Shown here: positions 4,827 to 29,081 of the stretch, in pieces
Position numbering within the stretch: position 1 is the first letter of the stretch
How the letters are laid out: every line of letters starts with the position of its first letter
NCBI GenBank assembly: GCA_902561355.1
Contig: CACEPG010000009.1
Span: forward strand, 1 to 41,958
DNA length: 41,958 bases
Source of the DNA: an uncultured Alphaproteobacteria bacterium
Lineage (GTDB): Bacteria; Pseudomonadota; Alphaproteobacteria; HIMB59; GCA-002718135
Reading direction: 5' to 3'
Translations under genes and position numbers: made by a program
The notes under the pieces: generated by a model
Database searches by the model: none
The model's input: only the letters and a program-made list of their open reading frames with translations
Told to the model about the DNA's origin: nothing

Positions 4827-4831
4827 AGAAA

Positions 4832-12592: not shown

Positions 12593-12608
12593 ATCAAAAG
12601 GAAAAAAA

Positions 12609-13631: not shown

Positions 13632-14003
13632 ATGACTAACGTAGTTGCCGCTATTATAAAAAAAGATAATCATTTTTTAATTGTAAAAAGAAATAGAAAA
13701 AAACATTTAGGCTTAAAGTGGGAATTTCCGGGGGGGAAAGTTCAGGAAAACGAAACATTCGAAGAAGCATTAATTAGAGAAATAAAAGAAGAATTGAATA
13801 TTAAAATTAGTCTACAAGATAAAATAGCTGAAGAAAAATATAAAGATGAAAAAATAGATATAGTTTTACATTATTTTTTGTGTACTCAAGAAGATGGCAC
13901 TATTGAACTCAATGAACACGAAGATCTAGCTTGGGTAGAAAAAAAAGATTTTGATAAATATAATTTCGCTGAAGGTGATGGAAAGATTTTAGCATTACTA
14001 TGA
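13632..14003 (+). CDS. mutT: Nudix hydrolase, MutT-like
   Basis: 123 residues. The complete Nudix box runs from Gly35 to Ile57, with the metal-binding REIKEEL at residues 49-55 preceded by WEFPGGKVQENE. This is the size and layout of MutT/CTP-pyrophosphohydrolase-type enzymes that remove 8-oxo-dGTP or other damaged nucleotides. The C-terminal ALAWVEKKDF-like block (here EDLAWVEKKDF) is typical of the MutT group. It is the last gene of the SDR-dpkA run, 21 bases downstream. Its end overlaps the convergent racemase-family gene by six bases. Its presence here is probably a packing accident rather than part of a catabolic pathway. Confidence 0.88.
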   Translation: MTNVVAAIIKKDNHFLIVKRNRKKHLGLKWEFPGGKVQENETFEEALIREIKEELNIKISLQDKIAEEKYKDEKIDIVLHYFLCTQEDGTIELNEHEDLAWVEKKDFDKYNFAEGDGKILALL

Positions 14004-15023
14004 TATTTTTGGCCATGTATCATTTAATTTATATCCTTCTGGAAATGGGTCATCATCAGAAATATACATTTCTTGTTCACCGGTTATAAATGCTGAACCT
14101 TTTATTGATGGAACAATCATTAATTGGTTTCCTTCAGTATATTCACGAGTAATATATGATTCAAAAGTAGAACCGATAATTGATCTTGAAATAAATTTTT
14201 CATTAATATTGATTTCATTTTTTGCATACATTAATGCCAGTCTAGCCGAAGTTCCAGTACCACATGGTGATCGATCAAGTTTTCCTGGCCTAATACATAC
14301 AGTATTCCAACCTTCTTTTTGATTAAGGTTATTAATCTTTACCGGTTCTATAAATTGACAAAAAGAAATATAATCTAATTGAGATAATAATGGGTGTGTA
14401 AAACCAAGAGTTGCATTTGCTTCTCTGACAACTTCTTTTGAAATTTCAACAAATTTTTTTGCATTATCTGGCTTTATAGTCAAATCAAAATCCTGTGCAT
14501 TACAAATTACAAAGCTATCTCCTCCAAATACCGTGCTTACAATTATTTCTCCAAATGTAGGTGTGTGAAGCTTTGCTTCAAGTTTATCTACAAATGATGG
14601 TAAGTTGTGTATTTCAACAAAACTAACTTTTTTATTTTCTATAAATGCTTTTATAGGAATAATTCCTCCTGGAGCTTCAAGGAAGAATTCTGTTATAGGT
14701 TCAGTCATTTCTATAATACCTTTCTCTAATAATACAGTAGCTACACATATACTGTTAGATCCACTCATTGGTGGATTATCCTCTGGTTCCATTATAATAA
14801 ATGCGGCTTTAGCTTTTTTATCAGTTGTTGGTACTAATAAGTTAAAATGTTTAAAAACTCCTCCTCTTGGTTCATGAAGAAGAAAATTTCTTAATTTTTT
14901 ATCTTCAAATAAAAATTTAGATTTTTCTAATGTATTTTTTCCCCGTAGATTAACATTTCCAGCTACAATTACATCACCAATTTCACCACAACAATGTGCA
15001 TTGTAGAGTTTAAGTTTATGCAT
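13998..15023 (-). CDS. Proline racemase family protein, Ser/Cys type (possible trans-3-hydroxyproline dehydratase)
   Basis: 341 residues of the proline racemase/hydroxyproline epimerase/dehydratase family. The N-terminal NAHCCGEIGDVI is typical. The first catalytic position is serine (Ser87 in PPMSGSNSIC) where racemases have cysteine in MCGH. The second catalytic cysteine is kept (Cys254 in DRSPCGTGTSARL). Ser/Cys members have been linked to trans-3-hydroxy-L-proline dehydration or hydroxyproline epimerisation, so a plain proline racemase is less likely. A dehydratase would yield delta1-pyrroline-2-carboxylate for the nearby DpkA-like reductase. It is the last gene of the eight-gene M24/eutBC run, its ATG sharing one base with the previous stop (TAATG). 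Confidence 0.8.
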   Translation of the reverse strand: MHKLKLYNAHCCGEIGDVIVAGNVNLRGKNTLEKSKFLFEDKKLRNFLLHEPRGGVFKHFNLLVPTTDKKAKAAFIIMEPEDNPPMSGSNSICVATVLLEKGIIEMTEPITEFFLEAPGGIIPIKAFIENKKVSFVEIHNLPSFVDKLEAKLHTPTFGEIIVSTVFGGDSFVICNAQDFDLTIKPDNAKKFVEISKEVVREANATLGFTHPLLSQLDYISFCQFIEPVKINNLNQKEGWNTVCIRPGKLDRSPCGTGTSARLALMYAKNEININEKFISRSIIGSTFESYITREYTEGNQLMIVPSIKGSAFITGEQEMYISDDDPFPEGYKLNDTWPKIS

Positions 15024-16177
15024 TAATTAATTATTAAATCTTCTATTTCTTTTGAATGATGTGTAATTTGTTCATATCCATCTTCAGTAATTATAAAACT
15101 GTCACCTACTTGACCTCTAAAATCTTTTGAACTACTTCCTCCATCTACTGCAAAAACCATTCCCGGTTTTAAAATTGTTTTATTACCAACAACAAGCTGT
15201 GGTTCTTCTAAGAAGCTAAAACCAGTGCCTCTGCCACATCTAAAAGTAGGATAAGGATAACCTTCAGATTGTATAGTGTCAGCATAAGCGGCATGAACTT
15301 CTTCAGCGGTTACTCCTGGACCTAATACACTTAACGCTGCTTGTTGAGATTTTACAGCAACTTCAAAAGCTTTTATTTGACTTTTATCTTTTATTTCATT
15401 TACCCAAAAAACGCGGTCAAAACCTAATTTAAATCTATGAAAATTTGTTGATCCACAATAACAACAAAATACAGGCTCTCCCCTTTTAACTAATTTTGTC
15501 GATGCACGACGATGTGTGTATGGCAATTCTTTTCCTGAAGTTATGACTGGCAAAAAATGAATATTAGGTGACATATTGGGACTATTTGGGTAGTGAGATT
15601 TAAGCAATTCTGCTGCTTTTCTAGTACCAGCCTGTGCTTGTGCTAAAGCAATTTCATATTGAGGAACATCATGTGCTATTAAAGATTTTGCTCCTTCCAT
15701 CATTGCCATAGCAACTTGACCAGCATGCCTTGCTATCTGTAATTCTTCAGCTGATTTAATCATTCTTATATCATTTGTTATGGGTGTAATATTACCCATA
15801 GATTTATCATTTAATAATTCAGCTAAATAATTACTAACTGTTGCATTAATCTTATATTTCTCACAAAATATATTCTGATGTTTATTTATTATCTTTGGCA
15901 AAAGTTCTTTCCATTCTTTTCCAATTCCATCATTCCAAGTTTCTATTTTATCAACTGGAGTATCCTCAGGGACTAAAAGAACATCTAATAATGGTGTGAT
16001 TAAAGTGCTCTCACCATCTTTTGGAACAAGTAGAATAGTTGGTCTATTAAAATCCATGTGAAGAAAATCATGATAACCAGTAAAATAGTACAAATTATCA
16101 TCATCAGTTATTATAGAAAGATCTATATTATGCTCTGCCATTTTTGATCTTAATTCATTCAAGTTTTTTGCGAACAT
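15023..16177 (-). CDS. M24 pita-bread hydrolase, metal site lost (creatinase/prolidase-like)
   Basis: 384 residues. The creatinase-type N-terminal domain (LSIITDDDNLYYFTGYHDF near residue 20) is followed by a pita-bread domain beginning at RMIKSAEELQIARHAG near residue 138. Metal positions of aminopeptidase P/prolidase are not conserved: GFDRVFW near 253, CGRGTGFSF instead of GHGIG near 314, and VFAVDGG instead of the glutamate near 341. His222 in LPYTHRR aligns with the catalytic histidine of creatinase. It therefore looks like a metal-free amidohydrolase or cyclic-amide hydrolase. It is much less DoeA-like than the gene next to soxG. True substrate unknown; creatine, a cyclic imino acid derivative or an acylated diamine are possible. 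Confidence 0.82.
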   Translation of the reverse strand: MFAKNLNELRSKMAEHNIDLSIITDDDNLYYFTGYHDFLHMDFNRPTILLVPKDGESTLITPLLDVLLVPEDTPVDKIETWNDGIGKEWKELLPKIINKHQNIFCEKYKINATVSNYLAELLNDKSMGNITPITNDIRMIKSAEELQIARHAGQVAMAMMEGAKSLIAHDVPQYEIALAQAQAGTRKAAELLKSHYPNSPNMSPNIHFLPVITSGKELPYTHRRASTKLVKRGEPVFCCYCGSTNFHRFKLGFDRVFWVNEIKDKSQIKAFEVAVKSQQAALSVLGPGVTAEEVHAAYADTIQSEGYPYPTFRCGRGTGFSFLEEPQLVVGNKTILKPGMVFAVDGGSSSKDFRGQVGDSFIITEDGYEQITHHSKEIEDLIIN

Positions 16178-16200
16178 TTTTCTCTCCTATATTTTAAAAA

Positions 16201-17355
16201 TTATTTTAATTGTTGTTCAACTAACTCACTCCAATAAGATGATCCTATCACTAATAGCTTATCATTAAAATCATAATCTGGAGAATGAAGTGGTTTACCA
16301 TTACAGCCAGTGGTACCATTACCAATTAAAACAAAACAACCTGGTTTTGCCTGAGACATAATAGAAAAATCCTCTGAAAATGGTCTAGGATCAACGTCCC
16401 CATCAGTATTTTGTTCACCTAATAAATTTGCAGCAGCTTTTGTTGCAGAGTCAGTCTGTTTTGATTGATTGAAAGTCATTGGACAAGAAGTCTCATATTT
16501 CACTTCATAAGAAAAACCATAAGCATCACAAATCCCACCTACAAGTTGACGCATATTTTCTTCAATCATTTTATTAGTTTCTTGTGAAAATGCTCTTGCA
16601 TCTCCTTTAATCAATCCATTACCAGGAAGTATATTTTTTTTTCCATCTGTAATGAATTCAGTTACAGACACTACACCTGTCTTTACTGGATCTAGTTTCC
16701 TTGAAACAATAGTTTGTAGTGCTACAATTATTTGACTACCAATTGTAATTGTATCTTTACTCATGTGAGGTAAAGCTGCGTGACCACCCTTGCCTTCAAT
16801 CTTTATTTCAAATAAATTTTCACTTGTTGTAATTGCTCCTTTTCTAGTTCCAAAAGTACCTGTTTCCATTCCGGGAATATTATGCAGTCCATAAACTTCA
16901 TCTATTGAAAATTTTGTAAATAAACCTTCTTCAATCATTGTTTTTGCACCTAAACAATTTTCTTCATCTGGTTGGAATATAAAATAAACAGTTCCATCAA
17001 AATTTCCGTGCTCTGCTAGATATTTAGCTGCACCAAGCAAAATAGAAGTATGACCATCATGACCACACGCATGCATTCTATTCTCAATTTTTGATTTATA
17101 TGAAAATGTATTCATTTCATTTATAGGAAGTGCATCCATATCCGCTCTAATACCAATACTTTTTGAACTATTTCCTTTTTTTAAAACTCCTACAACACCT
17201 GTTTTAGCAATACCTTGATGTACCTCAAGTCCAAAATCTTTTAGAAGATTTGCAACTTTATTTGAAGCATACTCCTCTTCAAAACTAATTTGGGGATTCA
17301 TATGTAAGTCATGCCTCCATTCAACTAGCTGATTATGAAGACTTTGTGTTTTCAT
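16201..17355 (-). CDS. M20 amidohydrolase (hippurate hydrolase/DoeB2-like)
   Basis: 384 residues of the M20D amidohydrolase family, cytoplasmic. The metal-binding blocks are IRADMDALPI, HACGHDGHTSILLG and QPDEENCLGA, with GLHNIPG and a C-terminal HSPDYDFND. The usual dimerisation domain is present, including GKGGHAALPH. These enzymes cleave N-acyl or amide bonds. An M20 protein called DoeB2 has been proposed for N-acetyl-diaminobutyrate in marine ectoine degraders, and no M14-type DoeB is seen here. I choose the ATG at 17355; an in-frame TTG at 17364 overlaps the upstream PLP gene by four bases. It lies between the PLP gene and an M24 gene in the eutBC run. Confidence 0.88.
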   Translation of the reverse strand: MKTQSLHNQLVEWRHDLHMNPQISFEEEYASNKVANLLKDFGLEVHQGIAKTGVVGVLKKGNSSKSIGIRADMDALPINEMNTFSYKSKIENRMHACGHDGHTSILLGAAKYLAEHGNFDGTVYFIFQPDEENCLGAKTMIEEGLFTKFSIDEVYGLHNIPGMETGTFGTRKGAITTSENLFEIKIEGKGGHAALPHMSKDTITIGSQIIVALQTIVSRKLDPVKTGVVSVTEFITDGKKNILPGNGLIKGDARAFSQETNKMIEENMRQLVGGICDAYGFSYEVKYETSCPMTFNQSKQTDSATKAAANLLGEQNTDGDVDPRPFSEDFSIMSQAKPGCFVLIGNGTTGCNGKPLHSPDYDFNDKLLVIGSSYWSELVEQQLK

Positions 17356-17360
17356 ATTAA

Positions 17361-18806
17361 TCAAATTGAGTTGAAATCATTTATTCTATCATCAAGTGAA
17401 AGCATATACCGATAATGCTCATTCCAAAAATTTTGATTTCTTCTTTTTTCAAAATCATTTGTACTTATTCCTTGTTGCTCGACCCAAGTATAATAACCAA
17501 GATTAAAAATTCTTTCTTTATCTTTTTGATTTAATTCTAAAGTATTATCTGTGCTAATTCCCTTTAGATACTGACCAAAAATTTCTCCACACGCAGTTTC
17601 ATCATAAACTCCTCTAAATTCTGCTTTAGTCTTATTTAATTCTGAAAGATATAAATCTGCCCCATCAGTAGCAACAGTAACAATTGCATCATCTTTTCCT
17701 AATTTCATATATTTTGCGAGCTTAATAGATGCTAAAATATTTGCTATTGCAGAAAAACCAAATTCAGGAAGTCTTTTTATAAAATCAATTTCAAAACCTT
17801 TTTTTCTACTTAAGTATTGTTGACCAATTTCTGTATTGAACATCATATTAAGATTATTAGTTGCTTGATCTGTTATTCCTACAACAAAATCAGTATTCAT
17901 TACGTTATGAATTAAGGGGACATGTTTATCTCCAATGCCTTGAATATTATGCTCACCATATCCATTATTTAGTAATGTTGGACACTCTAATGCCTCAACA
18001 ACAGCAATTTGAGTATTTAATTTATCTTTTAAATAATCTCCCGCAGCAAGTGTTCCACTCGACCCTGAAGCACTAACGTAAAATCTTGCTTTTAAATTTG
18101 TATTTCCCTTAACTTCTAAGAAAGATTTTTCAAATGAAGGACCTGTTACTGCGCGATGAATTGCATAATTATAATATTCGTCAAATTGATTGATTATATC
18201 ATTATGAGGATTTTTTTTAAGTTCATTGCACGCATCATATATTTCTTTAACATTACTTTCTGTCCCTTTAGTTTTTATAATGTCATTTTTATCTTCCACC
18301 CATTCTTCTAACCAATTAAATCTTTCCTTACTCATTCCTTCAGGCAATATTGCTATACTTTTCAAACCAAGTATTCTTGATATAGCGACACCTCCTCTGC
18401 AATAATTTCCTGTTGATGGCCACACTGCTTTATGTTTTTCAAAATCAAAACTGCCATTAAGAATTCTTGGTAACAAACATCCATAAGCCGCCAAAACTTT
18501 ATGTGCAGTAATCAGGGGAAATAATCTACCAATATTAACAATTATTTTTGCTTCTACCCCTGTGAATTCATCTGGTAATACAATATGCTCAGGTACTTTA
18601 GAAAAACTTGAATGATCTCGATTATTAAACCAATTAACCCGAAATAAATTTTTTGGATCAACAGAATTTTTATCTATTGACTTAAGTTTTAACTTTACAT
18701 CATCATTAATTGAATGAGGGTTTTGTAGTTCAGAAATTTTTGGAAGAATTATTCCTCTCCCCTTAAAATATGCTGAAGTTTTGCTAATTATTTCATTATT
18801 AAACAT
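17361..18806 (-). CDS. Fold-type II PLP-dependent enzyme of unassigned reaction
   Basis: 481 residues. It resembles the cysteine synthase/threonine dehydratase fold but is longer. VWPSTGNYCRGGVAISRILG (residues 128-147) is the phosphate- or substrate-binding loop of this fold. By spacing, Lys103 in ITAHKVLAAYG is the likely Schiff-base lysine. FYVSASGSSGTLAAGDYL further on is a glycine-rich PLP-phosphate loop. Relatives are annotated vaguely as PLP-dependent or cysteine synthase-like, and I know of no defined reaction. It follows eutC with a one-base gap, inside an operon for hydroxyectoine use. A lyase or beta-elimination step on a diamino or hydroxy-diamino acid is plausible but unproven. 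Confidence 0.75.
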   Translation of the reverse strand: MFNNEIISKTSAYFKGRGIILPKISELQNPHSINDDVKLKLKSIDKNSVDPKNLFRVNWFNNRDHSSFSKVPEHIVLPDEFTGVEAKIIVNIGRLFPLITAHKVLAAYGCLLPRILNGSFDFEKHKAVWPSTGNYCRGGVAISRILGLKSIAILPEGMSKERFNWLEEWVEDKNDIIKTKGTESNVKEIYDACNELKKNPHNDIINQFDEYYNYAIHRAVTGPSFEKSFLEVKGNTNLKARFYVSASGSSGTLAAGDYLKDKLNTQIAVVEALECPTLLNNGYGEHNIQGIGDKHVPLIHNVMNTDFVVGITDQATNNLNMMFNTEIGQQYLSRKKGFEIDFIKRLPEFGFSAIANILASIKLAKYMKLGKDDAIVTVATDGADLYLSELNKTKAEFRGVYDETACGEIFGQYLKGISTDNTLELNQKDKERIFNLGYYTWVEQQGISTNDFEKRRNQNFWNEHYRYMLSLDDRINDFNSI

Positions 18807-18807
18807 A

Positions 18808-19785
18808 CTATATCTTTGTTCCTAATTTTTTTCTCATTGCGATATCGAAAGTAAATCTTGCTATTGCAGTATCCTGAACTCCTGTACCTGTTAAATCACA
18901 TATAGTAATATCATCTTTACTTTTTCTTCCTAAATCTGGATTCAAAATAATATCTCCTAATTCATTAAAATGTTCATTTGGTGATATTACTTTAGCTTGA
19001 ATAGCATGGTGTAATTCACCTAGTACTGCTGTTTGAGATTGACTATCAGGTATATAAATATCACAATTTTTTAAAATTTCAGGATCTATTTCATTTTTTT
19101 CTTCAGCATCTGAGCCCATTGCAGTGATATGTAATCCTTTTTTTAACCATTCATTTTTAATTAAAGGTGATTTACTAGGAGTTGTTGTCACAACTATTTC
19201 TGATTTAGTAATTAACTCTTCAATTGAAGAACATTTTTCAATCTTGAGATCTAAATATTTAGTCTCTTCCTCAAAATGATTAAGTTTATCTCTGTCTCTT
19301 GACCATATAAAGGCTTTATCAATAGGACGAACTAATTTTAATGCTTCAAGTTGCAACTTTGCCTGCAAACCTGCTCCTATTATTCCTGCTTTTGTTGAGT
19401 CTTGATTAGATAAATATTTTGCTGCAATTGATCCTGCAATTGCTGTACGCACATCAGTTAAATAACCTTTGTCTAATAAAAGTGATTTAATAACTCCAGT
19501 TTTAGAATCTAATAAGATCATCATGCCATTACTCGATGGAATGCCAAGTTTTGGATTATTAAAAAATCCTGAAGCTACTTTTATTGCATAACTATCTAAA
19601 CCCTCAATATATGCCGTCTTCACATCAGTTTCACCATTATATTTGTGAACATCAAGGCGTAAAATTGGTGGCATAATAGTCTTCCCTACTGCTAAATTTT
19701 TAAAAGCATCTTCAATAACAGGAATAAGTTGCTCATTTAATTGAACACATTTTTTTATTTCTTTTGATTCTAACAAAACTGTCAT
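18808..19785 (-). CDS. eutC: Ectoine utilization protein EutC (ornithine cyclodeaminase family)
   Basis: 325 residues of the ornithine cyclodeaminase/mu-crystallin family with a Rossmann loop GIIGAGLQAKLQLEAL near residue 134. The blocks MPPILRLDVHKYNGETDVKT, YLTDVRTA, HITAMGSDAEEKNEIDPE, LGELHHAIQA and CDLTGTGVQDTAIA match EutC more closely than ornithine cyclodeaminase or pyrroline-2-carboxylate reductase. EutA, EutB and EutC together convert 5-hydroxyectoine toward ectoine, and EutC is thought to act as the NAD(H)-dependent step. Its ATG overlaps the eutB stop by four bases (ATGA), so the pair is translationally coupled. A reductase role in hydroxyproline breakdown is an alternative because family members do that too. 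Confidence 0.88.
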   Translation of the reverse strand: MTVLLESKEIKKCVQLNEQLIPVIEDAFKNLAVGKTIMPPILRLDVHKYNGETDVKTAYIEGLDSYAIKVASGFFNNPKLGIPSSNGMMILLDSKTGVIKSLLLDKGYLTDVRTAIAGSIAAKYLSNQDSTKAGIIGAGLQAKLQLEALKLVRPIDKAFIWSRDRDKLNHFEEETKYLDLKIEKCSSIEELITKSEIVVTTTPSKSPLIKNEWLKKGLHITAMGSDAEEKNEIDPEILKNCDIYIPDSQSQTAVLGELHHAIQAKVISPNEHFNELGDIILNPDLGRKSKDDITICDLTGTGVQDTAIARFTFDIAMRKKLGTKI

Positions 19786-20732
19786 AATATTATCTTAGAA
19801 AATAGTTCGGTATCGATATTACCACCACAAATTAAACAGATTATATTTTTACCTAAGTGTTTTGACAAATTATCTTTAACAACCATTACACTAGTAGCTG
19901 CTGCGCCCTCAGTTACTAATCTATGTTCATGAAAATTTAATCTAATACCTTCCTCAATTTTTTCCTCACTAACTAAAACAAAATCATCAATTGTTTTTTT
20001 TGCAATATCAAATGTATATTTATTTTCTAAACCTATACTTCCACCCAAACAATCAGCTAAAGTTTCTAATTCTTCCACATCTACTGGTTTACCATGTTTT
20101 AAGCTTTCATACATTGATGGACCCCTTTCCATAGACACTGCAATAATTTTTATATCAGGTTTTTGTAATTTTAGTGCTAGTGCAATACCACCTATCAATC
20201 CACCACCTGATGTTGGAATAATTACAGTATCTACCTCAGGAAAATCATTTAGCATTTCAATCCCTACAGTCCCTTGACCAGCAATAACATCCTCATCATC
20301 AAATGGATGAATAAAAGGAATACTATTCTTTTTTGAAATTTCTCTAGCATAAAGATCTGCTTCATCACTATTTGATCCATATATTTCAACTTTTGCTCCT
20401 AGAGTTTCGATTGCTTCCTTTCTGTATTTTGGAACCATTTTTGACATATATATAGTCGAATTAATATTGAGTTTACTTGAAGCAAAGGCAACACCTTTTC
20501 CATGATTACCTGTAGAGACAGCAATAACACCTCTTTGTTTTTCATCTTCAGTTAAAGAAAGTAATTTATTTGTTGCACCTCTTAACTTAAACGAACCTGT
20601 TTTTTGAAGTGACTCTAATTTTAGTTTTACAGTTCTGTTTTTTGATAATAAATCAGATGAAATTAAAGGCGTGTGATTTACAAATGGTGAAATTTTTTTA
20701 TGAGACTCTAAAATTCTATCTAATGAAATCAT
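19782..20732 (-). CDS. eutB: Hydroxyectoine utilization dehydratase EutB (threonine dehydratase family)
   Basis: 316 residues, a PLP enzyme of the threonine/serine dehydratase group. Lys49 in TGSFKLRGATNKL is the Schiff-base lysine, STGNHGKG lies near residue 73, and a glycine-rich TSGGGLIGGIALAL near residue 175 binds the cofactor phosphate. The region MERGPSMYESLKHGKPVDVE, then LADCLGGSIGLENKYTF, is the EutB-specific stretch that separates it from catabolic threonine dehydratase. The proposed role is removal of the hydroxyl group during hydroxyectoine breakdown. There is no regulatory ACT domain. It is coupled to eutC downstream and starts eight bases after an M24 gene. Confidence 0.9.
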   Translation of the reverse strand: MISLDRILESHKKISPFVNHTPLISSDLLSKNRTVKLKLESLQKTGSFKLRGATNKLLSLTEDEKQRGVIAVSTGNHGKGVAFASSKLNINSTIYMSKMVPKYRKEAIETLGAKVEIYGSNSDEADLYAREISKKNSIPFIHPFDDEDVIAGQGTVGIEMLNDFPEVDTVIIPTSGGGLIGGIALALKLQKPDIKIIAVSMERGPSMYESLKHGKPVDVEELETLADCLGGSIGLENKYTFDIAKKTIDDFVLVSEEKIEEGIRLNFHEHRLVTEGAAATSVMVVKDNLSKHLGKNIICLICGGNIDTELFSKIIL

Positions 20733-20740
20733 TTTGATTT

Positions 20741-21895
20741 TTACAATATATATAACTCTCTAGATGTTTTGGATAAAAGCTCAACACCTTGATTAGTAAT
20801 TATAATATTATCAATTAATCTTACTCCTATTTTGTCTTCATAACTAAATGCAGGAGGTTCAATGGCTATAACCATACCTGGTTCAAAAAAACGCTCTGAA
20901 GATCCATCAACGATTAAAGGCTCTACCCAAGTTGGAGGAAATGCAATTCCTAATGCATAACCTGTCATGTGTAAACGATACTTTTCCATACCTGCTTTTT
21001 CTATTATTAATTTTGCTGCATTATGTGCTTTTCTTACTTCTTTACCAGGACCCATCTCAGCTATGCATGCGTCTCCAGCTTCTTTAACAACATCGAATAT
21101 TTCTTTCATTCTTTTAGTTGGTCTACCAACACACATATTTCTACCAATTGTGCAACAATACCTTCTATAGTGTGATCCAAACTGCAAATGCATAAAATCT
21201 CCGTCTTCTAATTTTTTATCACTTGGCTCACCATGTGCAAACATAGATCTGTCACCAGTTAAAAAATTCATTGGACTTGAAGGTATATCACCGCCATTAA
21301 TAAACATTTCATAGTGTATATTTGCAGATATTTCTCTTTCTGTTATTCCTGGTTTTATTTTTTTTAAACCAGCATTGAAACTTTTATCTGCAATTTCTGA
21401 AGCTTTACGAACATAATTTAGTTCTGTTTCTGACTTTAAAAGTTTAATTTCACCAATTAAATTTGTAGATATATGAACAATAGATTTTCCAAGCATTTCA
21501 CTAAGTTTTTTATATTCAAATGGGTGAAGATAATAATAAGGTACTTCTATTCCAATTTTTTTATTTAATAGGTTTTTTTCTGACATCAGTTTATACAATG
21601 CATCAATTGGATCTTCTGGCTCTTGACCACCCCAACCATAAACTTCGTCCGCTAATGAGTAATCATTCATCATTTCAACTTCTGATCTTCTTGTCATCAT
21701 AATCATTGGATCAGAGTCAATTGGAAACAATAAGGCTTCAAATTCTTGATAACCTTTAGCTGGAGTGCCTATTAAATAATTTATATTGGTTGGGGATATT
21801 ACCATAAGAAGTTCAATATTAGATGATTTCATAGAGCTTCGAACTTTTGCCCAACGATTTTTAAATTCTTCTATAGAAAAAAATTCTTTAGACAC
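20741..21895 (-). CDS. M24 pita-bread protein in the eutBC operon, altered metal site
   Basis: 384 residues. The creatinase-like N-terminal domain (LLMVISPTNINYLIGTPAKG) is followed by a pita-bread domain. His221 in MFAHGEPSDKK lies where creatinase has its catalytic histidine. The metal ligands are altered: MHLQFGS and CCTIGRN at the two Asp positions, and TGYALGIAFPPTW instead of GHGIG. The glutamate in AIEPPAF (Glu346) is kept. The GIAFPPTWVEP block recalls the DoeA GLGYPPDWGE block, so a DoeA-related cyclic amidine or amide hydrolase is plausible. Classical prolidase activity is unlikely. It lies six bases from the next M24 gene upstream and directly before eutB. Confidence 0.82.
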   Translation of the reverse strand: MSKEFFSIEEFKNRWAKVRSSMKSSNIELLMVISPTNINYLIGTPAKGYQEFEALLFPIDSDPMIMMTRRSEVEMMNDYSLADEVYGWGGQEPEDPIDALYKLMSEKNLLNKKIGIEVPYYYLHPFEYKKLSEMLGKSIVHISTNLIGEIKLLKSETELNYVRKASEIADKSFNAGLKKIKPGITEREISANIHYEMFINGGDIPSSPMNFLTGDRSMFAHGEPSDKKLEDGDFMHLQFGSHYRRYCCTIGRNMCVGRPTKRMKEIFDVVKEAGDACIAEMGPGKEVRKAHNAAKLIIEKAGMEKYRLHMTGYALGIAFPPTWVEPLIVDGSSERFFEPGMVIAIEPPAFSYEDKIGVRLIDNIIITNQGVELLSKTSRELYIL

Positions 21896-21900
21896 TATTA

Positions 21901-23058
21901 TTAAACTACTATCAGGGTAGTTGGTGTTTTGTTAGTTAATACTTCAGCGCCATTCTCAGTTAAAATAACTGTGTTAGAATAAAAGAAATCACCTTTACCT
22001 GACCACATTAACCAAGAATGAGTATGAAAAACCATTCCTACTTTTAAAACTTTTTTGCTATTTGGCGCTAATCCTGTAACCATACTTCCTCCAACCCAGC
22101 TAGGAGGAAAAGCAATACCAACGAGATAACCACAATGGTGACGTCTATATTCTGGAAGCCCTGCTTCATCAACCACATCCTGCCAAGCCTGATAGACATC
22201 CCCAGTTGTTGCGCCAGGCTTAATGGCTTTAAGTTGAGCCTCACCAGCTCTATTACTCAAATCAGCTGCAAAATCTGCATCATGTGGTTTTTCTCCTATA
22301 AAAACAAGGCGACCCATTGGTGCTTGGTATTTTTTAAAAGATCCTGCATGTTCAATATACAATGCATCTCCCTTTCTCATCACATCCCCTCTCCAGGTTG
22401 TATGTTCTTCATTAAGGCGATCAGTCATTCTTACAAATGGTCCAAAACCTGGGTATTCACTACCTGCTTTAATCATTGCAGAATGCATTTCAGCAGATAT
22501 GTCTCTATCACTTGCTCCATCCTTTGCAGCCTCTATTGCTGCTAAAGCACCTACATCAGCAGTTTCAGCAGCTTTTCGTGTGTATTCAATTTCAAGTGGA
22601 GATTTGACTTGTCTTAACTCATCAACTAATCCAGAACAATTAGAACAATTTGCCTTATTTAATTTAATAACTACTTCTTCATAAATTGCGGGTGTTAAAA
22701 AAAGCGAATTTTTTTCAATGCCAATATTTGAGTCTTCACATTTAGAGTCTTTTATTGCCTTTAAAATAAAATCTGCAGGATTTTCGAAATCCTTAAATCC
22801 ATAAAAATCTGCATTGAGTACATATCTTTCAACAGATACTTGCTCCATTTGTCTGCAAATAAGTATCATATTTCCTTCTTGTGGAACAAAAAGAACATGA
22901 CAAGCAAAATATCCCCAATGGTCTAAACCAGTTAAATAATATATATTTTCAGGAGCAGATATTAAAATAGCATTTAAATTATTTTTCTTCATTTCTTTAC
23001 GAACGAGACCTAGACGATTTTCTAATTCTTCTTTAGGGAAAGCATGACTAATTGGCAT
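21901..23058 (-). CDS. M24 pita-bread protein, first gene of the eutBC run
   Basis: 385 residues from the ATG at 23058, chosen because GGAG sits seven bases upstream. The frame is open to 23118, but the extra 20 residues are not family-like. A creatinase-like N-terminal domain (AILISAPENIYYLTGLDHWG) is followed by a pita-bread domain with His219 in NEEHTTWRGD. Metal positions are lost: LYIEHAGS, YQAPMGR, HCGYLVGIAFPPSWVGG instead of GHGIG, and VFHTHSW in place of the glutamate. It shares the GIAFPPxW block with the following gene, so the two are probable paralogues from an old duplication. The substrate is unknown; an ectoine-like cyclic compound is the contextual guess. Confidence 0.82.
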   Translation of the reverse strand: MPISHAFPKEELENRLGLVRKEMKKNNLNAILISAPENIYYLTGLDHWGYFACHVLFVPQEGNMILICRQMEQVSVERYVLNADFYGFKDFENPADFILKAIKDSKCEDSNIGIEKNSLFLTPAIYEEVVIKLNKANCSNCSGLVDELRQVKSPLEIEYTRKAAETADVGALAAIEAAKDGASDRDISAEMHSAMIKAGSEYPGFGPFVRMTDRLNEEHTTWRGDVMRKGDALYIEHAGSFKKYQAPMGRLVFIGEKPHDADFAADLSNRAGEAQLKAIKPGATTGDVYQAWQDVVDEAGLPEYRRHHCGYLVGIAFPPSWVGGSMVTGLAPNSKKVLKVGMVFHTHSWLMWSGKGDFFYSNTVILTENGAEVLTNKTPTTLIVV

Positions 23059-23169: not shown

Positions 23170-25446
23170 ATGTCAAAAAAATTTATTGGAACACATTGGG
23201 GCACTTACACGCATGGCAACAAAAAAAGTAAACCAAAACTTGGCTATTGGACAAAAGATTTAAATCCCACAAAATTTGGTTTAGATTTTATTAATGCAGC
23301 TCAGGATAACTTGAGAATAAGTCAACCCTACATCAGAAAAGGTTGGTTAGAAAAAAATAAAACACTTAGAGGCAGAGATACTTTTATTCCAGTTTCATGG
23401 GATAAAGCTATTAGATACGCTTCAACAGAGTTAACAAAAGTAAAAAAAAAATACGGAAATGAGTGTATTTATGCTGGCTCATATGGATGGGCAAGTGCAG
23501 GTCGATTTCATCATGCTAAAAGCCAGTTAAATCGTTTCTTAAATTTATTTGGAGGTTTCTCTCATTCGTTTCAAAGTTATTCTTATGCTGCAGCACAAAC
23601 GTTGCTTCCTCATATAATTGGTAAATCATTATATGAACTTCTTGATGATCATACATCTTGGAATGCGTTGTCGAAGAAAACTGAATTGGTTGTTATGTTT
23701 GGTGGAATGCCATTAAAAAACTCTCAGATTTCTTCTGGAGGAGTTGGTAAACATTCAACAAAAAAAGGATTAGAAGAATGTAAAAAAAACGGGGTAAAGT
23801 TTATTAATATTAGTCCCTTAAAAACAGATGCACCTTCTTTCATCAAAGCAAAACAAATTTTCATAAGACCAAATACTGATACTGCTTTAATGCTTTCATT
23901 AGCTTACTTATTAATAGTAAATGACACATACAACAAAAATTTTATAAATAAGTACACAGTTGGGTTTGATGAATTTAAAAAATATGTGCTTGGTAAAAAG
24001 AAAAATAAACCTTGTACACCTAAATGGGCTTCTCGTATAACGGGCATACCAGAAGAAAATATTATAAATCTATATAAAATTATTGTAAAAAAACGAACAT
24101 TGATTTCTATGTCATGGAGCTTACAAAGGGCCTCTCATGGTGAGCAACCTCTCTGGATGGGAATTACTCTAGCAAGTATGCTTGGTCATATAGGAAAATC
24201 TTCAGGAGGTTTTGGTTTTGGTTATTCTGCAGTCAATAGCACTGGTGATAGTTTTAATAAAATTAAATGGCCAAGTTTACCACAATTAAAAAATAAAATT
24301 AAATCCTTTATACCGGTAGCAAGAATTACAGATATGCTAAATAATCCAGGAAAAAGTTTTTTATATGATGGAAAAAAAATGAAATATCCAAAAATAAAAT
24401 TAATTTATTGGGCAGGAGGTAATCCCTTTCACCATCATCAAGATTTAAACAAACTAGTTAAAGCATGGCAGAAACCTGAAACAATTATAGTAAATGAAAT
24501 TTGGTGGAATTCACAAGCACGACATGCTGATATAATATTTCCAGCAAGCACAGCTCTAGAAAAAAATGATATTATGTTAAATCCAAGAGACCCTACCATT
24601 ATAGCAAATCATAAAATCATAAAAAATGTTGGGGAATCAAAAAGCGATTATGAAATATTTTCAGAATTATCAAAAAAACTTGGGTTTCATAAAAAATTTA
24701 CAAATAGTTTTAATGAAAAACAATGGTTAGGATCACTATGGGATCAAGCGAGAATTGAAGCAAAGAAAAATAATATAAAATTGCCATCCTTTAAAACATT
24801 TTGGAATAAAGGATATTTAGAATTACCTAAAATAAAAAGAGAAAATATAATGCTAAAAGATTTTATAATTAATCCAAAAAAAAATAGATTAAATACACCT
24901 TCTGGAAAAATAGAAATCGTATCAAAAACTATAAAAACATTTAAACTAAAGGATTGCAAAGAATATCCTTTTTGGTTTGAGCCTTATGAATGGTTAGGAA
25001 ACAAAAATAAATTTACTCTTCATCTTATATCAAATCAGCCAGAACATAAATTACATGGTCAATTGGACAATGCATATTTAAGTAAAAAAAATAAAATAAA
25101 AAAGAAAGAGCCAATTATAATAAATCCTTTAGATGCAAAAAAAAGAGGGCTTAAAAATAATGATTTAGTTGAAGTGTTTAATAAAAGAGGAAAAATGTTG
25201 GCGGGAGTTAAAATTTCAAATAAAGTGATGGAAGGTGTGGTAGTTGTATCTACTGGTTCTTGGTTTAGTCCTTATAAAAAAGAACAATTAGAAATACATG
25301 GAAACCCAAATGTTTTAACTGGAGATATACCGACCTCTTCTCTAAGTCAGGCTCCATCAGCGCATACAACTTTAGTTGAAGTAAAAAAAATGTCAAAAAA
25401 ATATAATAATTTAAAAACTCTTCTTTATGATTTTTCTCACCTATAA
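23170..25446 (+). CDS. bisC: BisC/TorZ-type molybdopterin oxidoreductase
   Basis: 758 residues of the DMSO reductase family. AGSYGWASAGRFHHAKSQ (residues 102-119) carries the serine (Ser104) that ligates molybdenum in DMSO, TMAO and biotin sulfoxide reductases. There is no N-terminal Cys motif for an iron-sulfur cluster and no Tat signal, so it should be cytoplasmic like BisC. Other typical blocks are YWAGGNPFHHHQDLN, FPASTALEKNDI, ISNQPEHKLHGQLDN and VVVSTGSWFSP. Likely substrates are biotin sulfoxide, methionine sulfoxide or another N- or S-oxide. It stands alone on the plus strand with AAAGGA before the ATG. No dedicated chaperone or cofactor-synthesis gene is nearby. Confidence 0.88.
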   Translation: MSKKFIGTHWGTYTHGNKKSKPKLGYWTKDLNPTKFGLDFINAAQDNLRISQPYIRKGWLEKNKTLRGRDTFIPVSWDKAIRYASTELTKVKKKYGNECIYAGSYGWASAGRFHHAKSQLNRFLNLFGGFSHSFQSYSYAAAQTLLPHIIGKSLYELLDDHTSWNALSKKTELVVMFGGMPLKNSQISSGGVGKHSTKKGLEECKKNGVKFINISPLKTDAPSFIKAKQIFIRPNTDTALMLSLAYLLIVNDTYNKNFINKYTVGFDEFKKYVLGKKKNKPCTPKWASRITGIPEENIINLYKIIVKKRTLISMSWSLQRASHGEQPLWMGITLASMLGHIGKSSGGFGFGYSAVNSTGDSFNKIKWPSLPQLKNKIKSFIPVARITDMLNNPGKSFLYDGKKMKYPKIKLIYWAGGNPFHHHQDLNKLVKAWQKPETIIVNEIWWNSQARHADIIFPASTALEKNDIMLNPRDPTIIANHKIIKNVGESKSDYEIFSELSKKLGFHKKFTNSFNEKQWLGSLWDQARIEAKKNNIKLPSFKTFWNKGYLELPKIKRENIMLKDFIINPKKNRLNTPSGKIEIVSKTIKTFKLKDCKEYPFWFEPYEWLGNKNKFTLHLISNQPEHKLHGQLDNAYLSKKNKIKKKEPIIINPLDAKKRGLKNNDLVEVFNKRGKMLAGVKISNKVMEGVVVVSTGSWFSPYKKEQLEIHGNPNVLTGDIPTSSLSQAPSAHTTLVEVKKMSKKYNNLKTLLYDFSHL

Positions 25447-25460
25447 TTTATTTGCTTATT

Positions 25461-27905
25461 CTATCCTTTTATTCTATCGCCATTTGGATCATAAAAAGGT
25501 TTTAGAGAAGCTTCAGCTTTGTATTTAACTCCCGCAGACTCAATTTCCCAGTTTCCATTATCAATATAATCCTTATTAATACCATTTTCATATTTAATGT
25601 ATCCTAAGGCTACAGAACTTTTAAAAGTAAATGAGTATGCTCCAGAACTAACATAGCCGACTATTTTATCATTACGGTAAATAATTTCTTCGTGCCATAA
25701 AACTCCTTCTGAGTCTTTGAGGCGAAAACAAATTAAACGTTTTTTAAGTGGTCCGTTTTCTTTTTGTTTAATTAAAGCATCACGACCAACAAAACCATTT
25801 GGTTTGTTCCAATCAATAGTAAAGCCCAATCCTGCTTCCAATGGTGTATCTTCTGGTGTTAAATCTAACTCGTATTCTCTGTAAGCTCGTTCTGATCGTA
25901 AATGTTCAAGTGCGTGATAACCTGCTGGTTTTAAATTAAATTCCTTTCCAGCTTTTATTAAGTTATCGAAAACATCAATTGAATGTTCAGTTGGTATGAA
26001 GATTTCCCAACCTAACTCACCTACATAAGTTAAACGATTTGCAATAACATTGGTATATCCAATTTCGATTTCTTTTGAAGTAGCAAATGGGAAACCATCG
26101 TTTGTTAAATCAGCATTTGTCAACTTTGATAGGATATCTCGAGATCGTGGTCCTTGCAATGATAGTACTGTGTAATTGTTTGTAACATCAGTAACAAAAA
26201 CTTTTTCATTTTCTTTGATTGATTTTTTAATCCAATTTAAATCTCTTGGTTGAGTGGTGGCAGAAGATATTATCAAAAATTCATTCTCTTTACGTCTGTT
26301 TATTGTAATATCTGTTTCTATTCCCCCTCTATCGTTTAGCATATGTGTATATATAATTTTCCCAATAGGAACATCAATGTTACTTGAACAAGTACGCTGT
26401 AAAAATGAAAGTGAATCATATCCTTTAATCAGATGCTTTCCAAATGACGTTTGATCTAAAATAATTGCACTTTCTCTTGCTGCCTTACATTCATTTTCTG
26501 TTGCTTCAAACCAATTAGGTTTTTTATGTGAATATATATTTTTAGTAGACTGACCATTTTCAGCAAACCACATAGGTCTTTCCCATCCCATTGCTTCACC
26601 AAAACTTGCACCTAATTTCTCCCATTGATCATGAATCTTGCTTTTACGTACTCCCCTTGAAGTAATTTTTTGATAATGAGGCCAATGAGGCTTGTAATGC
26701 AGACCAAGAATTTCAGGTATTCGGTCATGTAGATAATTGGTATTATTTTGAAATGGATGAAAACGCGCAATATCCACCGCACTCAAATCCATAGTTGGTG
26801 AGCCATTAACTATCCATTCAGCCAAAGCTCTACCTGCACCAGCTCCAAATTCAATCCCCTCTGAATTATATCCAGCTGATATAAAACAATTTTTTATTTC
26901 TGGAGCTTCACCAATTGCAAATAAAAGATCAGGAGTAAAACTCTCAGGTCCGTTAAAAAATTTTGAGATTCCTATATTTTTTAAAGGGTCTAGTAACTCC
27001 ATAGCTTTTGTATAAGGTAATTCAAAGTGATCCCAATCTTCAGGAAGTTCGATAAATGGTGTATCTTGTGGAAGCTTATCTAATGATATTGCTTTTCCCC
27101 AAGGCTCAAAAGCACCAACTAAAAATTTCCCTGCATCTTCTTTTATATAAACATGACCATCTGTATCGCGCAAAACAGGTAAGTTTTTTTGAGCGTCTTT
27201 AGTTCCCTCAGTGACAACGTAAAAGTGTTCAGCGGGATATAGAGGTACTTTAATTCCTAATTTTGAGGCCAAACTCCTTGTCCACAAACCACATGCAATA
27301 ACTAACTTTTCACAATTTATTTCCTCATTTTTTGTGAACACTGTAAATGATTGATCAAGATTTTGTTTTAAATCAACTACTTCAATATTTTCATGAACAG
27401 ATACTCCAAGTTTTTTTGCACCAGCAATTAGAGACATTGTTGTATCTACAGGATTTGTTTGACCATCTTTGGGTATATATATGGCACCTTCAATACATTC
27501 TTTATTCAGTGTGGGATAAAGATCCTTTGCCTCTGCAGGTGTCATTATTTCAGTTTCAATATCAAAACTTTTTGCAATAGTCGCAATACTCTTTGTTTCA
27601 TGCATGCGATCTTTAGTACGAGCAACACCCAATGTTCCATTTTGTTTGAAACCAGTAGCAACACCAGTTTCTGACTCAAGTGTAGAATAGAGTTCAACAT
27701 TATATTTTGCAATTTCAGTCAATGAATGTGTTGATCGTAACTGCATAATTAAACCTGCTGCATGCCAAGTTGTTCCAGAAGTTAATTGATGTCTCTCTAA
27801 TAAAGTAATATCAGTCTTATTTAACTTGGCTAAATGGTATGCAAGACTTGAACCAGCTATACCGCCTCCAATTATTACAATTTCAGTCGTTTTTTTTAAT
27901 TTCAT
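25461..27905 (-). CDS. Dimethylglycine dehydrogenase-like flavoprotein
   Basis: 814 residues with the two-part layout of dimethylglycine and sarcosine dehydrogenases. An N-terminal FAD oxidase domain (VIIGGGIAGSSLAYHLAKL near residue 10) is followed by a C-terminal GcvT-like folate domain from about residue 430. His48 in SGTTWHAAGL matches the histidine that binds FAD covalently in dimethylglycine dehydrogenase. The GcvT part contains SLQGPRSRDIL, LTYVGELGWEIFIPTE and EAGLGFTIDW. The enzyme removes one N-methyl group and passes it to folate. It lies six bases after an argE-like gene. With soxBDAG it would carry dimethylglycine to glycine. Sarcosine as the main substrate is possible but SoxBDAG makes it less needed. 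Confidence 0.9.
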   Translation of the reverse strand: MKLKKTTEIVIIGGGIAGSSLAYHLAKLNKTDITLLERHQLTSGTTWHAAGLIMQLRSTHSLTEIAKYNVELYSTLESETGVATGFKQNGTLGVARTKDRMHETKSIATIAKSFDIETEIMTPAEAKDLYPTLNKECIEGAIYIPKDGQTNPVDTTMSLIAGAKKLGVSVHENIEVVDLKQNLDQSFTVFTKNEEINCEKLVIACGLWTRSLASKLGIKVPLYPAEHFYVVTEGTKDAQKNLPVLRDTDGHVYIKEDAGKFLVGAFEPWGKAISLDKLPQDTPFIELPEDWDHFELPYTKAMELLDPLKNIGISKFFNGPESFTPDLLFAIGEAPEIKNCFISAGYNSEGIEFGAGAGRALAEWIVNGSPTMDLSAVDIARFHPFQNNTNYLHDRIPEILGLHYKPHWPHYQKITSRGVRKSKIHDQWEKLGASFGEAMGWERPMWFAENGQSTKNIYSHKKPNWFEATENECKAARESAIILDQTSFGKHLIKGYDSLSFLQRTCSSNIDVPIGKIIYTHMLNDRGGIETDITINRRKENEFLIISSATTQPRDLNWIKKSIKENEKVFVTDVTNNYTVLSLQGPRSRDILSKLTNADLTNDGFPFATSKEIEIGYTNVIANRLTYVGELGWEIFIPTEHSIDVFDNLIKAGKEFNLKPAGYHALEHLRSERAYREYELDLTPEDTPLEAGLGFTIDWNKPNGFVGRDALIKQKENGPLKKRLICFRLKDSEGVLWHEEIIYRNDKIVGYVSSGAYSFTFKSSVALGYIKYENGINKDYIDNGNWEIESAGVKYKAEASLKPFYDPNGDRIKG

Positions 27906-27911
27906 TATTTT

Positions 27912-29081
27912 TTATATAGATTTTTTAGTCCACTGATCTAGAAGTTTTAATAAATTTTGTAGACATTTATCAAGCTCAGATATACTTACAAACTCATTAG
28001 CTTTATGGGCTTGATCTATTGATCCGGGTCCACACACAACAACATCCATATTCATTTCTTGAAATATACCTGCTTCAGTTCCAAAAGAAATTACCCCTGT
28101 AGAATTTAATTGCAATAAATCTTGCATAATAACTCTAGCTTGATTATCTTTTTGCGGAATTAGACCTGGTATCTCGCCAATTATCTCTGTTGCTATTTTT
28201 GCTTCTGCGAATTTACTTTGCATTTCTGGCAAAAGTTTATTTTGACAATATTTAAAAAGATTAATTTTAACAAATTTTTTGTCTTCTTCATTAATTGGTC
28301 TCATCTCCCAATCTATAGAACATTGTCCGGCAATAACATTATGTGCAACTCCTCCCTCAATTTTACCTACTTGAACTGTTGTCCAAGGAGGATTGAAAGG
28401 ACTATCACTGGGAGCTCTTTTTTTTAGTTCATTGCCTAACTCGAAGAGTTTATTAGTAAATAAAGAACCATATTCAATAGCTGATAGTCCTTTTTCAGGA
28501 TTAGAGGCATGACCTTCTATTCCATGAAAACAAGTTGTATATTCACAATCTCCTTTATGAGCCTCAATTATTTCCATGTTAGTTGGTTCACCTATAATCA
28601 CTATTGAAGGTTTATATTTATATTTTTTTAACTCTTTAATTAAATGTCTTGCACCGAAACATCCTATCTCTTCATCATAAGTAAAACTAAAATGAACTGG
28701 GTAATTTAAATTTTTATTTTTTAAAATTTCTGCTGCAACAATTGTTGAAGCTATAAACCCTTTCATATCACAACTACCTCTTCCATAAAGCAAATCATCT
28801 TTTCTTGTAAGTTTAAAAGGATCAGAATTCCAATTTAATTCTTTAGCTGGAACAACATCTGTGTGACCTGATAATACAATACCTCCATCAATCTCTGGTC
28901 CAATTGTTGCAAAAATGTTAGCTTGTTTATTATCTGCTGTTTTAATTATATCAATTTTTCCTCCTAAGGATTTAATTTTATCTGATAAGTAATTTATTAT
29001 ATCTAAATTACTCTCCGAAGAGACTGAGGGATATCCAATAAGATCTGTCAATACAGATATAGTTTTGTCAAGAGTGGTCAT
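27912..29081 (-). CDS. argE: ArgE-type M20 deacetylase
   Basis: 389 residues of the ArgE/DapE M20 family. Metal and catalytic motifs are complete: LSGHTDVVP, YGRGSCDMKG, YDEEIGCFGA, IGEPTN, FGTEAGIFQ and SIDQAHKANEFV near the C-terminus. The dimerisation domain (GIEGHASNPEKG) is present. The family removes acetyl from N-acetylornithine. Its position, divergent from the ectoine transporter genes by 174 bases and upstream of the dimethylglycine dehydrogenase-like gene, suggests N-acetyl-diaminobutyrate as an alternative substrate, since no DoeB is seen. Calling it arginine biosynthesis ArgE rests on sequence resemblance only. No frameshift or start doubt. Confidence 0.85.
   Translation of the reverse strand: MTTLDKTISVLTDLIGYPSVSSESNLDIINYLSDKIKSLGGKIDIIKTADNKQANIFATIGPEIDGGIVLSGHTDVVPAKELNWNSDPFKLTRKDDLLYGRGSCDMKGFIASTIVAAEILKNKNLNYPVHFSFTYDEEIGCFGARHLIKELKKYKYKPSIVIIGEPTNMEIIEAHKGDCEYTTCFHGIEGHASNPEKGLSAIEYGSLFTNKLFELGNELKKRAPSDSPFNPPWTTVQVGKIEGGVAHNVIAGQCSIDWEMRPINEEDKKFVKINLFKYCQNKLLPEMQSKFAEAKIATEIIGEIPGLIPQKDNQARVIMQDLLQLNSTGVISFGTEAGIFQEMNMDVVVCGPGSIDQAHKANEFVSISELDKCLQNLLKLLDQWTKKSI

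Follow-up and report, generated by a model that had tools for sequence, protein, structure and literature searches.

A conserved operon of EutABC-like enzymes, metal-ligand-depleted M24 hydrolases, and sarcosine oxidase that may serve the breakdown of nitrogen-rich solutes in HIMB59-type marine bacteria

The described system closest to the locus analyzed here is ectoine and hydroxyectoine catabolism by eutABCDE/doe genes. In passages of PMC13188858, hydroxy intermediates are given as the proposed substrates of EutABC, an Ehu ABC transporter is reported for Sinorhizobium, and putative ectoine clusters of Bacillota are described that lack eutE and often carry an additional eutD homologue. The creatinase and sarcosine oxidase pathway is a second described system with which the locus can be compared. 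We analyzed a run of eight minus-strand genes (13998-23058) in a 41,958-nucleotide stretch of DNA (the window), which is contig 9 of the 1.285 Mb, 67.8% complete genome of an uncultured alphaproteobacterium. In transcription order, the run encodes M24a, M24b, EutB, EutC, a pyridoxal phosphate (PLP) enzyme, an M20 protein, M24c, and a proline-racemase-like protein (Pfam families M24, M24, PALP, OCD, PALP, M20, M24, and Pro_racemase), with successive gaps of 5, 8, -4, 1, -4, 23, and -1 bases. The preliminary description of this DNA had taken the run to be operon-like, and both the spacing (-4 to +23 bases) and the families agree with it.

We propose, with a probability of roughly one half, that the eight genes form the central part of an operon that is found throughout the genus, interleaves two modules, and lets marine bacteria of the HIMB59/AEGEAN169 type break down compatible solutes rich in nitrogen. 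The membership, order, and conservation of this operon can be read from the sequence, as can the loss of metal ligands from its M24 proteins, the Ser/Cys pair of its racemase-like protein, and its optional EutD. The same gene order was sought in 80 comparison loci (the best 80 of 143, retrieved with the PLP protein as the query), and EutB, EutC, and the PLP enzyme are consecutive in 56 of them, a linkage that is more than chance. A further 16 loci have no full-length EutB, EutC, or M20, and the other eight comprise six contigs cut inside EutC or the PLP gene, one locus whose EutC is split in two (L004), and one that is differently arranged (L077). The usual order in the relatives is amidinotransferase, EutA, EutB, EutC, PLP enzyme, M20, M24c, racemase, SoxB, SoxA, and SoxG, in some followed by EutD, with an aldehyde dehydrogenase lying divergently ahead of the amidinotransferase and, in the relatives whose small open reading frames (ORFs) were listed, a SoxD-sized ORF between SoxB and SoxA. 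The linkage first described is thus also found in relatives, but the run is only the middle of a larger locus, and EutA, EutD, SoxBDAG, the amidinotransferase, a semialdehyde-dehydrogenase-type gene, and an Ehu transporter all lie outside its bounds.

The distribution of these genes was followed in 61 relatives, comprising 37 genomes of the genus (own genome included) and 24 of the sister family, with presence defined by E-value limits. Completeness is 55-89% in the genus genomes, which makes absences soft, and the set overlaps with the 80 loci, so the two sets of counts are not independent. Among the 37 genus genomes, the amidinotransferase (E<=1e-100) occurs in 32, EutB in 30, M24c (E<=1e-100) in 29, and the racemase (E<=1e-80) in 27, and all four are found in 0 of the 24 sister-family genomes. 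EutD (E<=1e-110) occurs in 16 of the 37 and likewise in none of the sister family; M24c accompanies EutB in 27 of its 30 genomes, and EutD does so in 12. Where a locus extends more than 1.3 kb past SoxG, EutD is present there in 15 of 36 cases and absent in 21, and in the eight EutD-less loci inspected another gene lies 71-75 bases past SoxG. Since 21 of these 36 loci do without EutD, the core operon probably does more than break down hydroxyectoine.

In the window, all ancestral members are present, in three pieces (34185-32327, the run itself, and 11784-5514). The gap between EutA and EutB holds ehuBCDA, an ArgE-like M20 gene, a flavin adenine dinucleotide (FAD)-GcvT fusion, a BisC/TorA-type oxidoreductase, M24a, and M24b, and that between the racemase and SoxB holds SDR, LDH2, and Nudix genes on the opposite strand. 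Three relatives that lack the EutA-EutB insert (G413, G403, and G412; on the side beyond EutA, G413 only) have the same outer neighbours, and by simple parsimony the insert is therefore the derived state. M24a occurs in 2 of the 61 relatives, own genome included (L003 is probably the same genome as G388:C4 and thus no independent case), and part of M24b also in L002; the two genes are a lineage-specific addition.

Compared with eutABCDE/doe catabolism, the window shares EutA-, EutB-, EutC-, and EutD-like genes, a succinate-semialdehyde-dehydrogenase-type gene, and an Ehu transporter like that of Sinorhizobium. It differs in that EutD stands at the far end and is optional, in that no EutE above the NCBIfam cut-off was found in the 61 relatives (weak matches in six; the genomes are incomplete), and in that SoxBDAG, the amidinotransferase, M24c, the racemase, and the PLP enzyme are interleaved. 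For two proteins of the run, the best matches in NCBIfam are EutB and EutC models. The annotated proteins among the 20 best plasmid matches of EutB are named EutB, and the OCD protein scores 461 bits with the cyclodeaminase model versus 153 and 71 bits with pyrroline-2-carboxylate reductase models. Outside the genus, EutB (E<=1e-80) was found in eight of the 289 alphaproteobacterial genomes searched, with EutC and an EutD-like gene adjoining in four, EutC alone in one, and neither, in the stretch taken, in three, one of which has an M24a-like gene (32%) and one of which is a 6.3 kb contig. The hydroxyectoine part of the pathway first suggested is supported by EutB lying with EutC and EutD-like genes in four of these eight genomes and by the EutD, EutA-like, and Ehu genes of the window.

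M24 metallopeptidases of the prolidase/aminopeptidase P type have an Asp-Asp-His-Glu-Glu metal site. An intact M24 (L116:2744-3790) served as control in an alignment whose columns were read by eye at the positions that we take to be the metal-site ligands: none of the five is kept in M24a, M24c, or M24d, and a single Glu (1/5) is kept in M24b. Because at least four of the five ligands are lost, all four proteins look like DoeA/creatinase-type hydrolases rather than peptidases; a peptidase function of these genes was rejected by the same comparison. At 21-29% pairwise identity, they are not recent duplicates. In speaking of extra M24 proteins, the preliminary description understated the case, as the window holds four metal-ligand-depleted M24 subfamilies. 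By sequence, M24d, which lies outside the run, comes closest to ectoine hydrolase (372 bits to DoeA 6twk; 48% identity to annotated doeA genes). DoeA is also the best match in the PDB for M24a (146 bits). For M24b and M24c, the PDB sequences that match best are prolidases. M24b is 39-41% identical to three Mesorhizobium/Aminobacter plasmid proteins, and M24a is 53-57% identical to its best rhizobial plasmid proteins, of which the two inspected adjoin ehuABCD, amidase, and Sox genes. These two ehuABCD-M24a-amidase-Sox clusters lie on a Mesorhizobium amorphae plasmid (L114:7707-22176), where a threonine-dehydratase-type gene and purU are also present, and on the plasmid of a bean-associated Rhizobium (L115); both are annotated as peptidase plus ectoine transport.

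M24c, the more constant hydrolase of the operon, has 55-59% identical relatives in Roseovarius, Aminobacter, and other alphaproteobacteria. Its AlphaFold model (predicted local distance difference test, pLDDT, 91.8) matches creatinase 1chm best (Z 41.0, root-mean-square deviation 2.1, 369 residues aligned, ~22% identity), followed by prolidase 5cde (38.1, 2.4, 357) and DoeA 6yo9 (37.8, 2.5, 364); a fold held in common shows no function. Seven loci outside the genus carry an M24c at least 55% identical (L077, L082, L083, and L107-L110; a broken copy in L084 was left out), and among them an EutA-like gene is found in five, M20 in four, SoxB at 72% identity in three, and EutB or EutC in none. The hydrolase, the EutA-like protein, the deacylase, and at times sarcosine oxidase thus make up a unit that can do without adjoining hydroxyectoine enzymes. 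In the genome of L107, an EutB-EutC-EutD group lies on a separate contig (L144). Only L077 of the seven has the PLP enzyme, and this locus was retrieved with the PLP protein.

Ehu-M24-Sox clusters occur on plasmids of Roseovarius, Aminobacter, Mesorhizobium, and Rhizobium. Those of Roseovarius pelagicus (L083) and Aminobacter (L082) share with the window an ehuBCDA-type transporter, M24c (55-56%), an EutA-like gene, SoxB, SoxD, SoxA, and M20 (51%), and differ from it in having a diaminopropionate ammonia-lyase-type PLP enzyme and regulators and, in the stretch covered, no EutB, EutC, EutD, or amidinotransferase; no description of these two clusters was found in the literature searched. The diaminopropionate lyase near Sox in L083 had suggested beta-N-methylamino-alanine as a substrate, a candidate that was dropped for want of a supporting gene in the window.

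The heterotetrameric sarcosine oxidase set of SoxB, SoxD, SoxA, and SoxG is present, with its order conserved in relatives; SoxB scores 587 bits (cut-off 529) and SoxD 103.8 bits with Pfam (cut-off 27). For the PLP enzyme, sequence and predicted structure indicate only a cysteine-synthase fold. Its AlphaFold model (pLDDT 88.2) matches S-methylcysteine and cysteine synthases at Z about 30, a comparison that barely tests residues beyond about 410. Elsewhere the enzyme stands beside Ehu genes (Pelagibacteraceae contigs), a TRAP transporter (Bosea), and an amino-acid ABC transporter (Rhizobium). On one Pelagibacteraceae contig (L064:5100-20401), ehuABCD is divergent from the PLP enzyme (76%), which is followed by an amidinotransferase (61%), a luciferase-like monooxygenase, an acetolactate-synthase/Xsc-like thiamine pyrophosphate enzyme, an alpha/beta-hydrolase-type protein, and an aldehyde dehydrogenase, with no eut genes in the stretch covered.

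We infer from these patterns a two-module model, every reaction and substrate of which is put conditionally. In the first module, EutD, where present, would open (hydroxy)ectoine to N-acetyl-diaminobutyrate, M20, standing in for EutE, would take off the acyl group, EutB would eliminate the beta-hydroxyl to give an imine, EutC would reduce the imine, and the semialdehyde dehydrogenase would catalyze the last step; this module would be complete only where EutD is present. In the second, the more constant and metal-free M24c would cleave a cyclic amidine or guanidino solute, M20 would deacylate, SoxBDAG would transfer an N-methyl group to tetrahydrofolate, and the EutA-like protein, the racemase, and the PLP enzyme would adjust or split the resulting amino acid, while the amidinotransferase may recover amidino groups. 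The solute of this module is probably N-methylated or guanidino, as sarcosine oxidase suggests an N-methyl product and the amidinotransferase a guanidino link. The recurring M20 partner points to a scheme of hydrolysis and deacylation like that of EutD and EutE and argues against a plain creatinase. In the lineage of the window, the inserted block, with its Ehu transporter and the metal-ligand-depleted M24a and M24b, may widen the substrate range. More tentatively, and at less than even odds, M24c, the EutA-like protein, M20, and SoxBDAG might constitute a so far undescribed pathway of hydrolase, deacylase, and demethylase that acts on an N-methylated cyclic amidine or guanidino osmolyte, is common to HIMB59-type bacteria, roseobacters, and Hyphomicrobiales, is fed by ectoine-type transporters, and has been mistaken for peptidases, with metal-free M24 proteins as swappable front ends.

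Several observations weigh against the two-module operon that we favour. EutB, EutA, and EutD do not reach the curated cut-offs of NCBIfam (370/413, 216/318, and 471.7/613 bits), SoxA falls narrowly (1148.5/1164) and SoxG clearly (53.3/144) below theirs, although these are the best matches of both, and neither an aminotransferase nor EnuR or AsnC was recognized in the scans of the window (nor was Atf). In sequence, M24c scores highest with prolidases (77 bits), ahead of creatinase (59) and DoeA (45), and its profile repeats this order. Outside the genus, the EutA-like proteins encoded next to M24c share only 26-31% identity with that of the window, and two of the seven outside loci (L108 and L109) come from one genus. 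The PLP enzyme also occurs in the 16 of 80 loci that lack full-length EutB, EutC, or M20, so its role is not specific. Finally, a single operon could mean a single linear pathway rather than two modules.

An expanded (hydroxy)ectoine operon and nothing else, with M24a-c as variants of EutD and with M20 taking over from EutE as in the Bacillota clusters without eutE, seems unlikely to us. Such an operon would account for EutD, the EutA/B/C-like genes, Ehu, and the succinate-semialdehyde-dehydrogenase-type gene of the window, and it has parallels in the additional eutD homologues of the eutE-less clusters mentioned in PMC13188858. It also has one in a Priestia plasmid cluster (L118), which shares with our locus EutB, EutC, an EutD-like M24 (48% to M24d), a PLP enzyme, M20, an aldehyde dehydrogenase, and the lack of EutE. 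However, the PLP enzyme of that cluster is annotated as of the cystathionine-gamma-synthase family, homoserine dehydrogenase and PucR are present, and the 15 kb covered hold no Sox, amidinotransferase, or racemase gene. Moreover, the genus loci that do without EutD and the outside relatives of M24c that do without EutB and EutC fit poorly with ectoine as the only substrate, and we know of no step in ectoine breakdown that needs sarcosine oxidase or an amidinotransferase.

Creatine or guanidino catabolism, in which M24c is a creatinase that yields sarcosine and urea, SoxBDAG oxidizes the sarcosine, and the amidinotransferase moves amidino groups, is in our view similarly improbable. The M24 fold, for which creatinase 1chm is the best structural match of the M24c model, the adjoining SoxBDAG with a SoxB above its cut-off, the AGAT-family gene, and urease in part of the genus (21 of 37 genomes versus 0 of 24 in the sister family) all recall the creatinase and sarcosine oxidase pathway. 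The urease pattern fits that of AEGEAN169 'Ca. Indicimonas', for which part of PMC11366302 gives a urea pattern in 80% of members and proposes the use of creatine and sarcosine; our genus is probably this group, although we do not equate the creatinase of that report with M24c. MarineAlpha5 is placed near HIMB59 in part of PMC8879329. Against creatinase stand the ~22% identity of M24c and the higher scores of prolidases, so that sequence does not single it out, as well as the M20, EutA/B/C, racemase, and PLP enzymes that the window adds, of which EutA/B/C and the racemase would be left without a role. The incomplete genome of the window itself shows no urease. Creatinase, furthermore, is not known to need a deacylase, and M20 accompanies M24c in four of the seven outside loci.

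Much less probable still is a merger of hydroxyectoine with hydroxyproline breakdown, the other pathway first suggested, of which the hydroxyproline part is not supported by the racemase-like protein. This protein (Pfam Pro_racemase, 340 bits) is nearest to the t3HypD model of NCBIfam (427 bits, cut-off 550), which weighs against reading it as an epimerase, and one of its closest PDB chains (4k7g) is named 3-hydroxyproline dehydratase. According to passages of PMC4113996, Ser/Cys occurs in a 4-hydroxyproline epimerase, Ser/Thr or Cys/Thr occurs in t3HypDs, and OCD enzymes can be pyrroline-2-carboxylate reductases. The two-base pair of proline racemase/4-hydroxyproline epimerase, Cys/Cys or Ser/Cys, is found here as Ser/Cys, the first-site Ser (MSGSN) in 48 of 49 homologues, with one unmatched by the pattern, and the second-site Cys (RSPCGTG) in 49 of 49. 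The sequence thus argues for an epimerase type, and the t3HypD assignment was rejected on the Cys at the second site in place of Thr. In addition, EutC is a far better fit for the OCD protein than the reductase models are, and five loci skip the racemase gene between M24c and SoxB (L011, L025, L027, L028, and L030). No other hydroxyproline genes were recognized among the window ORFs scanned, although no search was aimed at them.

Peptide degradation, with M24 and M20 proteins as prolidases or aminopeptidases feeding amino acid enzymes, would agree with automatic names of homologues such as Xaa-Pro peptidase and with the prolidase matches of M24b and M24c, but it is hardly credible in view of the metal ligands that all four M24 proteins have lost relative to the intact control.

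If the operon does serve a nitrogen-rich solute, its conservation would show which dissolved organic nitrogen part of AEGEAN169 lives on, a clade that makes up about 3-6% of cells in South Pacific Gyre surface waters according to passages of PMC11366302. Where a cluster is linked to Ehu genes, an annotation as 'Xaa-Pro peptidase' may be mistaken, and metal-free M24 hydrolases that act on small solutes seem to form a family that goes beyond DoeA and creatinase. No description of the operon was found in the titles, abstracts, and passages of the open-licence literature searched.

Table 1 Features of the locus in the window, with model scores and cut-offs in bits.
Feature	Position	Strand	Score or remark
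Succinate-semialdehyde-dehydrogenase-type aldehyde dehydrogenase (Ssd/DoeC candidate)	34245..35696	+	Divergent; TIGR01780 722, cut-off 646
Amidinotransferase, AGAT family	33079..34185	-	First gene of ancestral operon; AGAT 1jdx E 8e-72
EutA-like, Asp/Glu racemase / arylmalonate decarboxylase family	32327..33082	-	TIGR02990 216, cut-off 318
ehuA, ABC transporter	31522-32316	+	Inserted block; 407.3, cut-off 345.4
ehuD, ABC transporter	30829-31506	+	Inserted block; 259.8, cut-off 205.2
ehuC, ABC transporter	30154-30825	+	Inserted block; 215.6, cut-off 196.95
ehuB, ABC transporter	29256-30086	+	Inserted block; 157.9, below cut-off 190.9
M20 acetylornithine-deacetylase-type hydrolase	27912..29081	-	Inserted block; TIGR01892 359.7, cut-off 297.7
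FAD oxidoreductase-GcvT fusion, 814 aa, dimethylglycine-dehydrogenase-like layout	25461..27905	-	Inserted block; DAO, FAO_M, GCV_T, GCV_T_C
BisC/TorA-type molybdopterin oxidoreductase	23170..25446	+	Inserted block; TIGR00509 876, below cut-off 1017.55
M24a, DoeA-related putative hydrolase without M24 metal ligands	21901..23058	-	Lineage-specific; DoeA_2 231.8, cut-off 575
M24b, M24-fold putative hydrolase, 1/5 metal ligands left	20741..21895	-	Lineage-specific
EutB-like PLP dehydratase	19782..20732	-	PRK07476 EutB 370, cut-off 413
EutC/cyclodeaminase, OCD family, imine reductase candidate	18808..19785	-	PRK08291 461.5, cut-off 408; TIGR02992 434.6, cut-off 471.65
Fold-type-II PLP enzyme, 481 aa	17361..18806	-	Cysteine-synthase-like core + C-terminal extension
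M20 amidohydrolase, candidate deacylase replacing EutE	16201..17364	-	TIGR01891 317, cut-off 153.75; CpsA 322, cut-off 500; DoeB2 307, cut-off 550 (NCBIfam)
M24c, putative core hydrolase of operon, 0 M24 metal ligands left	15023..16177	-	
Proline-racemase-family protein, Ser/Cys catalytic pair, putative epimerase type	13998..15023	-	
Nudix	13632-14003	+	Between racemase and soxB
LDH2-family dehydrogenase	12570-13610	+	Between racemase and soxB
SDR	11855-12592	+	Between racemase and soxB
soxB, sarcosine-oxidase-type	10516-11784	-	
soxD, sarcosine-oxidase-type	10234-10512	-	
soxA, sarcosine-oxidase-type	7265-10231	-	
soxG, sarcosine-oxidase-type	6706-7272	-	
M24d, EutD/DoeA ectoine hydrolase candidate	5514..6689	-	Last ancestral gene, optional in genus; EutD 471.7, cut-off 613

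The remaining window ORFs of at least 100 aa were scanned, except an antisense ORF inside M24a (22135-22545). An Rfam scan of the window returned tRNA only, and promoter and terminator sites in the window were not above those in shuffles (51 vs 52.4 and 3 vs 3.1). The position of the succinate-semialdehyde-dehydrogenase-type gene is kept in relatives, and a full-length LDH2 orthologue precedes SoxB in L002, L004, L068, and L074. Within the inserted block, the FAD-GcvT fusion has a 41% identical relative in a Roseovarius Ehu-M24 cluster and is a second candidate N-demethylase in the island, and the BisC/TorA-type oxidoreductase is divergent from M24a in a marine bacterium with a small genome. 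In five loci (L022, L034, L039, L059, and L067), M24c and Sox were not found after M20, where an EhuA-related ATPase gene (37%) stands instead; in one of them (L022:12744-18470), it is accompanied by a putrescine-type permease and a D-amino-acid-dehydrogenase-like gene. At 3153-5512 of the window, the operon is flanked, as it is in relatives, by a DUF3726 protein and by a 557-aa ORF with no Pfam match over the cut-off.

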